DNA of 64,000 bases from Frigoriglobus tundricola (GTDB lineage: Bacteria; Planctomycetota; Planctomycetia; Gemmatales; Gemmataceae). The notes below the pieces were generated by a model. The model had not been told where the DNA came from, searched no databases, and worked only from the letters and a program-made list of their open reading frames with translations. The translations under genes and the position numbers were made by a program. The stretch covers positions 3,472,001-3,536,000 of the forward strand of contig NZ_CP053452.2 of assembly GCF_013128195.2 (NCBI RefSeq). Direction: 5' to 3'. Below, in pieces: positions 8,653 to 45,381 of this stretch. The first letter of the stretch is position 1, and each line of letters starts with the position of its first letter.

Positions 8653-8710
8653 TTGTGGCGCGGGCCTCTGGCCTGCACCGCCGGAAGCAGGCCAGAGGCC
8701 CGCACCACAA
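8653..8710. repeat. Paired-hairpin element, GGCC-TCT-GGCC variant
   Basis: Arms 8653-8676 and 8687-8710 are inverted copies (24 nt, one mismatch) around a 10-nt loop. Each arm is itself a mini-hairpin: the core GGCC-TCT-GGCC in the first arm, GGCC-AGA-GGCC in the second. Two related copies lie at 25572-25650 and 42711-42782, where the core is GGCG-TCT-CGCC. The stem base pair is swapped as a pair, and the central loop sequences differ. It lies between hemW and the macro-domain gene. Confidence 0.85.
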
Positions 8711-21126: not shown

Positions 21127-21246
21127 ATCGAGCGAGCGGCGGGACGTAAGTCCGCCGGTGCTTCGAGTTGCGAAGCACCGGCGGACTTACGTCCCGCCGC
21201 TCGCTCGATGACCAAGCACCGGCGGACTTACGTCGCGCCGCTCGCT
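21127..21246. repeat. Perfect 39-bp foldback plus a third partial copy
   Basis: 21127-21165 and 21171-21209 are perfect inverted 39-mers around a 5-nt loop (AGTTG). A third, 33-nt copy of the right arm follows directly at 21214-21246 with one mismatch. It fills the gap between the convergent acyltransferase and dehydrogenase genes, so it could block read-through both ways. The extra copy implies the unit can duplicate. Confidence 0.9.
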
Positions 21247-25552: not shown

Positions 25553-25571
25553 GCCGAAAGCTAAGGATCAC

Positions 25572-25650
25572 CGGACAGAACTTGTGGTGCAGGCGTCTCG
25601 CCTGCATAGCTGAGGCAGGCGAGACGCCTGCACCACAACAGTTCTGTCCG
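25572..25650. repeat. Paired-hairpin element, GGCG-TCT-CGCC variant
   Basis: A nearly perfect foldback with arms of about 34 nt. Each arm is itself a mini-palindrome with a 3-nt loop: GCAGGCG-TCT-CGCCTGC in the first and GCAGGCG-AGA-CGCCTGC in the second. The same family occurs at 8653-8710 and 42711-42782, while the central loops (here about 9 nt) are unrelated. The outer stem carries extra pairing, CGGACAGAA with TTCTGTCCG. Confidence 0.9.
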
Positions 25651-25667
25651 ATAGTCCTAATGCATAG

Positions 25668-25729
25668 CGCGAGCGCGTGATTGAGCCTCCTGCCGCAAAT
25701 GAGGCAGGGCGCTCAATCACGCGCTCGCG
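25668..25729. terminator. Perfect 19-bp hairpin between convergent genes
   Basis: Arms 25668-25686 and 25711-25729 pair over 19 bp without mismatch, and the inside pairs further (CTGCC with GGCAG). TTTTG follows directly on the plus strand. It lies between the TIGR03000 gene (plus) and the 25751-26041 gene (minus), so it may stop transcription from both. Confidence 0.6.
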
Positions 25730-25750
25730 TTTTGCCCGGCCGACCGAAAC

Positions 25751-42689: not shown

Positions 42690-42710
42690 GTGATCCGTGG
42701 TAACGGTAGC

Positions 42711-42782
42711 GGCTCACATTGTGGTGCGGGCGTCTCGCCTGCTTACGTTTGCAGGCGAGACGCCCGCACCACAATGTGAGCC
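42711..42782. repeat. Perfect 32-bp foldback, paired-hairpin family
   Basis: Arms 42711-42742 and 42751-42782 pair over 32 bp without mismatch around TTACGTTT. Each arm contains the family core (GGGCG-TCT-CGCC and its complement), as at 8653 and 25572. It lies between the two halves of the AtuA-like protein, where such a stem may reduce read-through. Confidence 0.92.
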
Positions 42783-42842
42783 GACCCGAGGTGTCGGTTC
42801 CGTTTCCTGTGAGACCGGGCGAGACGAAGGGTAGTGCTAAGC

Positions 42843-43202
42843 GTGTCCACAATCACACTTTCCCAGCTCGCCCACGGGCGCAGCGGCGACAAGGGCAACC
42901 ACGCGAACGTGGCCGTGATCGCCTACACCGACGCCGGGTTCGCGTGGCTGCGGGCCAACCTCACGGCGGGGGCGGTGGCGGCCTACTTCGCGAGCCTCGG
43001 CGCGTCCCGCGTGGAGCGGTTCGAGGCCGCGAACGTCCGCGGGCTGAACTTCGTGCTCTACGACGTGCTGGCCGGCGGCGCGAGCCGCTCGCTCCGCACC
43101 GACACGCAGGGGAAGACGCTGGCGGTCGCGCTGTTGCGAATGTTGGTCGCGTGGGAAGAACCCCCTGTTAGCGCGGAGCGCGGAACGCGGAACGCGGAAT
43201 GA
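42843..43202 (+). CDS. AtuA C-terminal-like small domain protein
   Basis: A 119-residue protein with the compact fold seen at the C-terminus of AtuA: LSQLAHGRSGDKGNHANVAVIAY, where the GDKGN loop is typical, and RGLNFVLYDVLAGGASRSLRTDTQGKTLAVALLRM. Start GTG 42843 (MSTITLSQLAHG) is preferred; GTG 42834 is three codons earlier. The last ~12 residues (SAERGTRNAE) are encoded by the left arm of the palindrome 43156-43280, so the natural C-terminus may have been extended by the repeat. It presumably pairs with the product of 41334-42689 as a two-chain version of AtuA. Confidence 0.82.
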   Translation: MSTITLSQLAHGRSGDKGNHANVAVIAYTDAGFAWLRANLTAGAVAAYFASLGASRVERFEAANVRGLNFVLYDVLAGGASRSLRTDTQGKTLAVALLRMLVAWEEPPVSAERGTRNAE

Positions 43203-43280
43203 AGAACGAAACCCAAAAGAGTCTTCGGTTCTTTCACTTCGCGCTCCGCACTCCGCGTTCCGCGCTGAAGAGGGGTTCTT
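43156..43280. repeat. Palindrome with GCGGAACGCGGAAC stutter arms
   Basis: About 43156-43193 and 43245-43280 are imperfect inverted copies. Each begins or ends in AAGAACCCC and contains units such as GCGGAGCGCGGAACGCGGAA. The interior has a second nested pair (GAAGAACGAAA with TTCGGTTCTTT). The left arm overlaps the last codons of the AtuA C-terminal gene; the right end lies 18 bp before the enoyl-CoA hydratase start. Confidence 0.8.
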
Positions 43281-43298: not shown

Positions 43299-44081
43299 GT
43301 GTCCGACACCGTTCAATACACGCTACGCGGGCCGGCGGCGGTCGTCACGATCAACCGCCCCGAGAAGCGGAACGCCCTCAGCCGCGCGCTGATCGCCGAC
43401 CTCACCGACGCGTTCCTCCGCGCCAGCGCCGACCCCGCGGCCCGGTGCGTCATCCTCACCGGCGCCGGTCCCGCGTTCTGCGCGGGCATGGACCTCGACG
43501 AACTCCGCGGCACGATCGGTGACGACGCGGACATGGTCTGGGACGACGCGACGAAGCTCTCGTCGCTGTACGAACTGGTCTACACGCTCCCGAAGCCGAC
43601 CGTCGCCGCGGTGAACGGCGCCGCGGTCGCGGGCGGGGCCGGGCTCATGACCGTCTGCGACCTCGCCGTGAGCGTCCCGGACGCCAAGATCGGCTACCCC
43701 GAGGTCCGCCGCGGGCTGGTGGCGGCGATGGTGCTGCCGCACCTGTTGCGGCACGTCGGCGAGCGCACCGCGCGGTGGCTGCTGCTCACCGGCGAACTCA
43801 TCGACGGGCTGGCCGCGCTCCGCGTCGGGCTCGTGAACCAGATCACCTCGGCGGAGAACCTGCTCCAGACGGCGGACGCGTGGGCGCGGGCGCTCGCGGA
43901 GGGCGGGCCGAAGGCGCTCGCGACCACGAAAGAGCTGCTCCGCCGCTGCTCGCGGCAGGGCGTCGCGGTGGACGAACTCGCGCGGGCCAGCGCCGAGCCG
44001 CGGCTGACCGACGAGTGCCGCCACGGGCTGACCGCGTTCTTCGAGAAGAAGCCGGCCCCGTGGAGCCCGGGAGCGGGGTAA
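43299..44081 (+). CDS. Enoyl-CoA hydratase/isomerase family protein
   Basis: A crotonase-fold enzyme of 260 residues that acts on acyl-CoA thioesters, most likely hydrating an enoyl- or methylglutaconyl-CoA. Marks are TINRPEKRNALSRALIADL (CoA-binding start) and CVILTGAGPAFCAGMDLDEL. The oxyanion segment is PKPTVAAVNGAAVAGGAGLMTVCDLAVSV, and the catalytic-Glu region is KIGYPEVRRGLVAAMV. GTG 43299 is the start, set by GAGGAGG six bases upstream, an almost ideal ribosome site. Context with the split AtuA protein suggests a short branched-chain or terpene acyl-CoA pathway, but the carboxylase partner is not in the window. Confidence 0.9.
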   Translation: MSDTVQYTLRGPAAVVTINRPEKRNALSRALIADLTDAFLRASADPAARCVILTGAGPAFCAGMDLDELRGTIGDDADMVWDDATKLSSLYELVYTLPKPTVAAVNGAAVAGGAGLMTVCDLAVSVPDAKIGYPEVRRGLVAAMVLPHLLRHVGERTARWLLLTGELIDGLAALRVGLVNQITSAENLLQTADAWARALAEGGPKALATTKELLRRCSRQGVAVDELARASAEPRLTDECRHGLTAFFEKKPAPWSPGAG

Positions 44082-44211
44082 GAGTTTATCCGCAGATGGC
44101 ACAGAAGACACATATTGAAATCAGAATAAAGGAAGAAGGAGAGCCTTTTCAAACTTCGTCCTCTGCTGTCTTCAAATCTGTGTCTTCTGCGCCATCTGCT
44201 GATAAACTCTT
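44080..44211. repeat. 132-bp low-GC palindrome (CAGATGGCACAGAAGACAC type)
   Basis: Arms 44080-44119 and 44171-44211 are inverted copies of about 40 nt with a few mismatches. The element starts on the last base of the enoyl-CoA hydratase stop codon and ends 3 bp before the PfkB start codon, so it replaces the whole gap. It is strikingly A/T-rich for this genome and related in style to 32343-32472. Any ribosome site for the next gene would lie within the right arm. Confidence 0.88.
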
Positions 44212-44214
44212 CTC

Positions 44215-45189
44215 ATGAACCCCATCGTCGGGATCGGCGAAGTGCTGTGGGACGTGTACCCCGACGGCCACAAGGTCGCCGGCGGGGCGCCGTTCAACTT
44301 CGCGTTCCACTGCCACCAACTCGGCCACCCCGCGGTGATCGTCTCGCGCGTCGGCAACGACGACCTCGGGCGCGAACTGCGCGAGCGGGTCCGCGAACTC
44401 GGCCTCTCCGACGAGTACATCCAGACCGATTACAATCACCCGACCGGCACCGTTCAGGTGACGCTCGACGCGAACGCAGTGCCGACGTACACGATCACGG
44501 AAAATGTTGCGTGGGATCACATCGAATGGGACGAGAAACTTGCGGATTTAGCTTCGCGATACCGGGCCGTATGCTTCGGCACGCTCGCACTCCGCACCCG
44601 CCCCAACGACCGTGGCGCGATCCCACCGTTCATCCAGGCGAATAATAACGTCTTCGGGCCGCTCGGCCCGTACGACCCGCTCACCCTGGGCCACTGGGCG
44701 CCGCGGTTCGCCAGCATGCCTCTTCGGGTCGCGGATCTGAACCTCCGGCCCCCGCACTCGACCGAGTGGGCAATTCAAAGTTGTTCGGTGTGGGGCTACT
44801 GGGTGAAGATGAGCGCCGACGAGTTGCGCGAACTCGGCGGGACCGAAGCGGGACTGAGGGATCAGACCCCGCGGCGGTACTATGACACGTGCTGGTGGGA
44901 GAACAGCGACCCGAACCAAGTGCTAATCGTGACCGACGGACCGAACGGCGTTACAGTCGTGCAAGGGAAAGACGAGTTCCACGAACCCGGCGTGCCCGCG
45001 AAGGTCGTCGATACGGTGGGTGCGGGCGACGCGTTCACGGCCGCGATGGTGTGTCTGCACCTCGAAGGGAAACCGCTCCGCGCGTGTGCCCGGTTCGCTG
45101 TTCACTACGCCGCCCGCGTGTGCGAACAGCCCGGTGGCACGCCCCGGATCGACCGCAGCGCGGTCGAACGCGCCGTCTTCGGAAAGTAG
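44215..45189 (+). CDS. PfkB family carbohydrate kinase (fructokinase-like)
   Basis: A sugar kinase of 324 residues of the ribokinase fold. It has the N-terminal GIGEVLWDVYPDGHKVAGGAPFNFAFHCHQLG (sugar site with GGAPFN), SRVGNDDLGRELRERV, the ADLNLRPPH strand, and the C-terminal catalytic signature VDTVGAGDAFTAAM with the base Asp. GGAPFNFA and DLNLR favour fructokinase over ribokinase, but substrate is inference. ATG 44215 directly follows the palindrome. The last codons (CTTCGGAAAG) have been copied with the adjacent repeat 115 bp downstream (see 45177-45381). Parts are slightly less GC-rich than the average here. Confidence 0.9.
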   Translation: MNPIVGIGEVLWDVYPDGHKVAGGAPFNFAFHCHQLGHPAVIVSRVGNDDLGRELRERVRELGLSDEYIQTDYNHPTGTVQVTLDANAVPTYTITENVAWDHIEWDEKLADLASRYRAVCFGTLALRTRPNDRGAIPPFIQANNNVFGPLGPYDPLTLGHWAPRFASMPLRVADLNLRPPHSTEWAIQSCSVWGYWVKMSADELRELGGTEAGLRDQTPRRYYDTCWWENSDPNQVLIVTDGPNGVTVVQGKDEFHEPGVPAKVVDTVGAGDAFTAAMVCLHLEGKPLRACARFAVHYAARVCEQPGGTPRIDRSAVERAVFGK

Positions 45190-45381
45190 GTCACTCGCTC
45201 CGCGAGTGACACCAGCCACCGACCCCCAATGCCAGGGCGCGACTCGCGGAGCGAGTCGCCTACTTTCCCCGGCTGCGCGAGCGAGTATCGCCTTCGGAAA
45301 GCAGGTCACTCGCTCCGCGAGTGACGCGGACCCGCGACTCCCAATGCCAGGGCGCGACTCGCGGAGCGAGTCGCTTACTTT
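45177..45381. repeat. Two 90-bp direct repeats, each with TCC- and GGA-loop hairpins
   Basis: Copy one 45177-45266, copy two 45292-45381, period 115 bp. Each carries a perfect 9-bp hairpin GTCACTCGC-TCC-GCGAGTGAC, then CCAATGCCAGGGC, then GCGACTCGC-GGA-GCGAGTCGC. The 21-nt spacer between hairpin one and CCAATG differs partly. Copy one starts inside the PfkB gene, so the duplication took the end of that gene with it. The hairpin design matches 371-480. Two copies only, with no CRISPR character. Confidence 0.92.

Follow-up and report, generated by a model that had tools for sequence, protein, structure and literature searches.

The window, by which we mean the whole stretch of 64,000 nucleotides of Frigoriglobus tundricola DNA that was analyzed (positions 3472001-3536000 of contig C1 in a host genome, G000, of 9,857,393 bases and two contigs), is 87% coding, as judged by a home-made gene caller for which these loci served as training set. 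Three paired-hairpin elements had been predicted in it from the letters alone, and all three are present. DNA folding gives a single long hairpin at each, formed by arms that pair with each other as foreseen (z = -10.1, -14.3 and -15.4 for copies 1, 2 and 3 against dinucleotide shuffles), and in none of the three cases did any of 200 shuffles fold as well. The predicted span of copy 1 was exact, but those of copies 2 and 3 took in part of an outer stem. The features are the following:

8653-8710, no strand: copy 1, REP-type doublet, family A core with 24-nt arms and a 10-nt loop
25562-25564, no strand: left-hand TAA of the 3-bp target-site duplication around copy 2
25565-25581, plus strand: left arm (GGATCACCGGACAGAAC) of the MITE-like frame (a) of copy 2
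25582-25638, no strand: copy 2, family A core with perfect 24-nt arms and a 9-nt loop
25639-25657, minus strand: right arm of frame (a) of copy 2
25658-25660, no strand: right-hand TAA of the 3-bp target-site duplication around copy 2
42710-42718, plus strand: outer left arm of copy 3, CGGCTCACA, 9 bp, a perfect complement of 42775-42783
42719-42774, no strand: copy 3, family A core with perfect 24-nt arms and an 8-nt loop
42775-42783, minus strand: outer right arm of copy 3

Copy 1 lies between two plus-strand genes and is without a recognizable outer frame, copy 2 belongs to the frame-a elements, with TAA at both ends, and the outer stem of copy 3, 9 bp long, matched no recognized frame type. 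The outer arms of copies 2 and 3 (10 bp and 9 bp), left uninterpreted in the original prediction, are copy-specific extensions of the stem. The smaller hairpins described within the arms, with loops TCT or AGA, are real by folding (7 of 200 shuffles equal the one in the 5' arm of copy 1). The arm start said to be common to the copies is not common, since copy 1 begins with TTGTGGCGC and not with TTGTGGTGC, and one of its arm pairs is thus C/A. The central loops do differ among the three window copies, but genome-wide they recur, in both orientations relative to the frame.

An Rfam search of the window gave no family over its threshold. Other inverted repeats were seen along the way: a further hairpin with 36-nt arms that are 86% complementary begins two bases past the frame of copy 2 (25662-25735), and two long imperfect inverted repeats, at 44080-44211 (37 nt, 92%) and 43156-43280 (48 nt, 79%), may be further miniature elements.

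Copy number, anatomy and pairing of family A

With up to two mismatches, the arm matches the whole genome 33 times in forward and 35 times in reverse orientation, compared to three and zero matches for a reversed control pattern in the same search. A covariance model built from 34 distinct cores gave 119 matches on both strands, among them the 38 doublet loci that make up family A (counting the three in the window and two short variants with deletions), and 65 of the 68 arm matches fall within these doublets. The genome-wide search of this kind, which the original prediction had called for, has thus turned up a great deal more than the "few or no further copies" that would have spoken against a repeat family. 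The remaining matches of the model belong to sister family B (TGGGACCGCGGGCG arms, with a loop that is either short or of about 47 nt) and sister family C (TTGTGGCAC arms), or are weak hits.

The consensus arm of family A consists of the tag GTGG, a single T, GCAGGCG, the loop TCT and CGCCTGC. Two such arms in inverted orientation, with the tags on the outside, form one 57-nt hairpin, and the loops of the mini-hairpins are TCT or TCC. In the available text of PMC6006769, a REP is defined as a hairpin (stem 7-20 bp, loop 2-5 nt) that is preceded, at a distance of 0-2 nt, by GTAG or GTGG, and doublets with the tags outside are termed head-head in the corresponding part of PMC3733652; the PVC superphylum is named in this literature among the hosts of GTAG repeats. 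Family A has GTGG followed by one nucleotide, its four tag columns are invariant across the 34 distinct cores, and the consensus stem of 7 bp with a 3-nt loop lies within the REP definition. Perfectly Watson-Crick mini-stems, however, are found in only 12 of 34 five-prime arms and 14 of 30 ungapped three-prime arms. The proposed likeness to REP/BIME elements is supported by the consensus arm (as judged by the available text of PMC6006769), the doublet arrangement and the location of 37 of the 38 copies outside called genes.

Gene orientation around the copies is tandem in 26 cases, convergent in seven and divergent in four, with one copy inside a called gene. A preference for a particular gene orientation was considered and dropped, as the distribution is not clearly different from that of the window's intergenic bases. 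Among the copies between same-strand genes, 23 of 26 are nearer to the 3' end of the upstream gene by hand count.

In an alignment of the 34 distinct cores longer than 50 nt (the two short variants excluded), arm-to-arm pairs are complementary in 95.7% of cells and show 31 two-sided changes in seven pairs, compared to 8.8 in shuffles, none of 500 of which was as high, although such shuffles do not remove the relatedness among copies. For the mini-hairpins the pairing is 91.9% of cells, with five two-sided changes in both taken together; at one position of the mini-stem, pairing is lost in 9 of 34 arms on the five-prime side and in 13 of the 33 three-prime arms that could be read. The two arms of one copy differ on average at 1.5 positions, compared to 2.7 for arms of different copies. 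The stronger pairing and covariation from arm to arm, and the greater likeness of arms within a copy, show that it is the long hairpin that is maintained within this genome. Covariation had been predicted, and it is real, but it resides mainly between the arms and to a lesser extent in the mini-hairpins.

Inverted-repeat frames around the doublets

The original prediction had overlooked that most copies are surrounded by MITE-like frames with target-site duplications. Sorting the flanks of the 38 cores by script assigned 19 to a frame b, five to a frame a and 14 to neither, two of the latter resembling frame b by eye. Hence 24 of the 38 copies, window copy 2 included, lie near the centre of an inverted-repeat frame according to the script, and 12 to 14, including window copies 1 and 3, have no recognized frame. 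Frame b runs from TNA and GGCATGGGCGGAGAAATAATGTACCGC to GCGGTCGAGCATTTTCCCGCTTCTGCC and TNA; frame a runs from TNA and GGAC...CGGACAGAAC to GTTCTGTCCG...GTCC and TNA. A third frame, TNA followed by TACCAAGTCGTGTTGATCGG (the TACC frame), carries family B cores. In all three frames the terminal inverted repeats are common to the copies.

The triplets at the two ends of a frame are identical more often than in shuffles. This is so for 11 of 19 frame b elements (shuffle mean 4.4, 0 of 10,000 as high; two of 21 rows were dropped because the right end was unreadable) and for 11 of 15 frame a elements (shuffle mean 5.4, P = 0.0006), leaving non-identical pairs in 8 of 19 and 4 of 15, respectively. 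In the TACC frame, eight of ten two-ended copies have identical triplets by eye. Target-site duplications are thus found in frames a, b and TACC alike. A cores are present in three of the 15 tested frame-a elements (two with TAA/TAA, one with TAA/CAA), and two more A copies in frame a, unpaired by the script, read TAA/CAA (4844205) and TTA/TTA (8008197) by eye.

The frames resemble MITEs: they are short, non-coding and present in many copies, and they have imperfect terminal inverted repeats and a target-site duplication, which is TNA in the host and 9 bp long in the sister species G006. They differ from MITEs in having a near-central REP doublet as interior, and in that the interior swaps between copies with the same ends. 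Because the frames also occur with other interiors, frame and core are separate modules: 12 of the 15 frame-a elements contain C/G-rich hairpins, a frame a at L339 (TTA/TTA) has a non-REP interior, and the TACC frame (TACCAAGTCGTG) encloses a GTAG-type REP doublet at two places in the host genome (L328, L332) and family B doublets elsewhere. Since most copies are found inside such frames, what moved was probably often the larger frame and not the core alone. A search for near-identical frame ends found only MITE-sized pairs and none at insertion-sequence distance, and no autonomous element with these ends was recognized.

The frames also bear on the origin of the complementarity. In two copies within frame b (4886202 and 7869243), the outer arms are perfect complements of 13 and 9 bp, whereas those of sister copies are imperfect, and the 9-nt loop of frame b occurs in either orientation (six copies CAAAGNRAN-like and three CTCGCTTTG, counted from the listing). 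Perfect outer arms and inverted loops are both to be expected if, in replication, one arm of a hairpin serves as template for the other. Covariation, accordingly, need not mean selection, and of the two options in the original prediction, that the structure is selected or that it is copied as such, copying is the better fit. In unframed copies, the longest complementary run of the outer stem averages 5.4, compared to 4.6 for mismatched flanks, and a clear outer stem outside the frames is seen only in 3514719 (window copy 3) and 6376222.

Relatives and RAYT genes

The arm pattern matches 30 of 59 genomes, the host included. The strongest matches outside the host are to the sister species G006 (42+44), G007 (21+21) and G010 (12+15), each of which has its own stem sequences. 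Reading of 40 loci of these species revealed frames there, too. In G006, five of 14 A-type doublet loci lie inside a frame with ends TGCTCTGTTGAAATGATG, flanked by 9-bp duplications that are exact in three cases, match at 8 of 9 positions in one and are lacking in one. Another five loci of this species (L344, L348, L354, L356, L357) have the REP doublet in a CCAATGGCACTTACTTTGG (CCAATGG) frame, with a diverged end at one of the five loci, and in four of these five the frame stands beside or between the halves of a further REP hairpin, so that hairpins are nested. In G007, two of 14 loci have a frame of the TACC type between TCA triplets, and in another genus (G031) one doublet lies, by eye, in a TTA-bounded frame starting with GGAAACG. 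Many relative copies are frameless and lie a few bases past a stop codon (seen by eye, uncounted). A doublet in G011 (L380) is located between direct repeats of about 24 nt (ATCAAAAtCGGTTGCACAACG-like).

The original prediction had named a RAYT-type enzyme as the possible mover. Such genes are present in the host: seven Y1_Tnp and three NF047646 matches, one of the latter additional, make eight Y1/RAYT genes. Inspection of their flanks revealed no family-A arm beside any of them. As no matching RAYT gene was found, family A is an orphan REP in this genome. The host RAYT at 5804076 is flanked by a different repeat, GTGGCACAGGCTTTCTAGCCTGTG, and the one at 6277191 by CTACTTTC / CTCGCGGAGCGAG palindromes that are present also at 45181-45381 of the window. 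This part of the window has CTACTTTCC / CTCGCGGAGCGAG palindromes in three inverted-repeat pairs, which also flank a RAYT gene of the host (L058, L153, L191). A related-looking CGCTCGCGGAGCGAGCGG pair is found at 371-480. At 21127-21246 there is a 39-bp perfect inverted repeat with a third arm (AGCGAGCGGCGGGACGTAAGTCCGCCGG), and similar sequence flanks a RAYT-type gene in G011 (L157).

GTGG-tagged repeats are common on the flanks of RAYT genes of Gemmata-type relatives. Among 23 hand-chosen RAYT/Y1 loci, 19 have matching inverted hairpins on both sides, the top hairpin being GTGG-tagged in 12; as the search admitted Watson-Crick stems only, covariation in these hairpins follows from its design. 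In four relatives, RAYTs have family B arms next to them (at L159, they were seen on one side only). A scan of a collection of genome contigs for the GTGGTGC arm together with the RAYT NPV motif gave 11 stretches, two of which hold an NF047646 protein with inverted GTGGTGC REPs on both sides, one from a Planctomycetota MAG (L211) and one from a Verrucomicrobia MAG (L212). The other nine were rejected as RAYT loci, as they have no RAYT and are either chance matches or REPs without one. A RAYT as mover thus has indirect support from two MAGs and from the many RAYTs of this family with GTGG-tagged REPs, but none from the RAYT/Y1 genes found in the host. In L212 (2820-3671), the flanking REP encodes the RAYT C-terminus, AGKMPAPQ. 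At L173 (1183-1848), the flanking REP encodes the last RAYT residues, AGETPAVPG.

Probable spread and carriage of the doublets

Taken together, the data make it likely that the family-A elements are REPIN-like doublets of the GTGG REP class, probably spread by a RAYT at first, orphaned in the host genome, and now mostly central passengers of MITE-like frames. The doublet would first have spread as single-stranded DNA through a RAYT of the GTGG-REP kind, which we consider probable because such REPs flank RAYT genes in Planctomycetota and Verrucomicrobiota. Both in the host and in two or more sister species, it also came to occupy a near-central place in unrelated miniature inverted-repeat transposons. 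Because these frames have ends and duplications of their own (3-bp TNA in the host, 9 bp in G006), the doublet may have been carried along by a conventional transposase that acts on these ends. Copying of one arm from the other in the single-stranded palindrome may explain, at least partly, why the arms and the adjoining outer stem have stayed complementary.

The doublet may have entered the MITE, or the MITE may have formed around the doublet; the near-central position of the core favours entry at the apex. One could go further and propose, tentatively and with considerable doubt, that the apex of other palindromes is where REP doublets insert: a MITE, when single-stranded, would fold back through its ends, the doublet would be placed in the loop by a RAYT-type enzyme or by template switching, and the transposase of the MITE would spread the composite. 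That one design comes with differing frames and duplication lengths in sister species suggests that such composites originated repeatedly. TIRs in which degenerate GTAG-1 units are joined to unrelated stem-loops, of which the available part of PMC3733652 reports hundreds in P. putida and P. fluorescens, are likewise composites of a REP and another palindrome, but they are described as flanking a RAYT gene, and that part of the paper does not mention 3- or 9-bp target duplications. The literature searched, including the available portions of PMC3733652, PMC3116915 and PMC6006769, yielded no description of REP doublets inside MITEs or of a two-enzyme partnership.

It is unlikely that family A is simply a REPIN or BIME family that moves by RAYT only, with the outer inverted repeats as incidental flanks or as secondary growth of the hairpin. 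The REP anatomy, the doublets, their intergenic location, the free-standing copies in the host and its relatives and the GTGG-REP-flanked RAYTs of relatives would all fit. Judging by the accessible text of PMC3116915, REPINs also consist of two inverted REPs with a short spacer that form one long hairpin, are intergenic and far outnumber single arms, and the GT[AG]G-tagged REPs of TnpAREP/RAYT systems share the GTGG tag, the stem, the loop and the head-head dimers (available parts of PMC6006769 and PMC3733652). However, 24 of the 38 copies are surrounded by one of two frame sequences whose TNA duplications are non-random, and these frames carry other interiors as well. Moreover, family A, unlike the REPINs of PMC3116915 as far as the available text goes, has no self-flanked RAYT in the genome and has most of its copies in frames with target-site duplications; the cognate RAYT expected of GT[AG]G-tagged REPs is missing in the host, and the parts of PMC6006769 and PMC3733652 at hand do not name this sequence family.

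The converse reading, in which the elements are plain palindromic MITEs and the core is a mere interior without relation to RAYT, accounts for the frames with TNA or 9-bp duplications, yet we regard it as more improbable still, since the core is also found frameless and in several unrelated frames, fits the GTGG REP rule, and has a GTGGTGC arm that flanks RAYT genes elsewhere. REPs in general favour 3' ends. That the copies are a conserved RNA hairpin at gene 3' ends, an mRNA stabilizer or terminator selected as RNA structure with mobility being secondary, is highly improbable: the strong, covarying hairpin and the nearness of 23 of 26 same-strand copies to the upstream 3' end would agree with it, but this preference is typical of REPs, mobility is indicated by the outer stems, the frames and the duplications, and the T-tract of an intrinsic terminator follows the hairpin on neither strand in any of the 38 host copies or the 35 usable relative copies (five of the 40 relative loci could not be used).

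We thus prefer the reading of family A as orphan doublets carried by MITE-like frames. Compensatory changes in DNA palindromes are no proof of a selected RNA structure, because arm-to-arm copying would yield an equal signal. The idea that the doublets are passengers can be tested by comparing framed with free copies. If insertion at the apex of other palindromes is indeed how the composites arise, REPs that have lost their RAYT would survive by travelling in unrelated transposons, in what amounts to a two-enzyme partnership. If orphan REP doublets do travel on ordinary MITEs, this would be part of the answer to how REPs spread and to why there are REPs without a matching RAYT.
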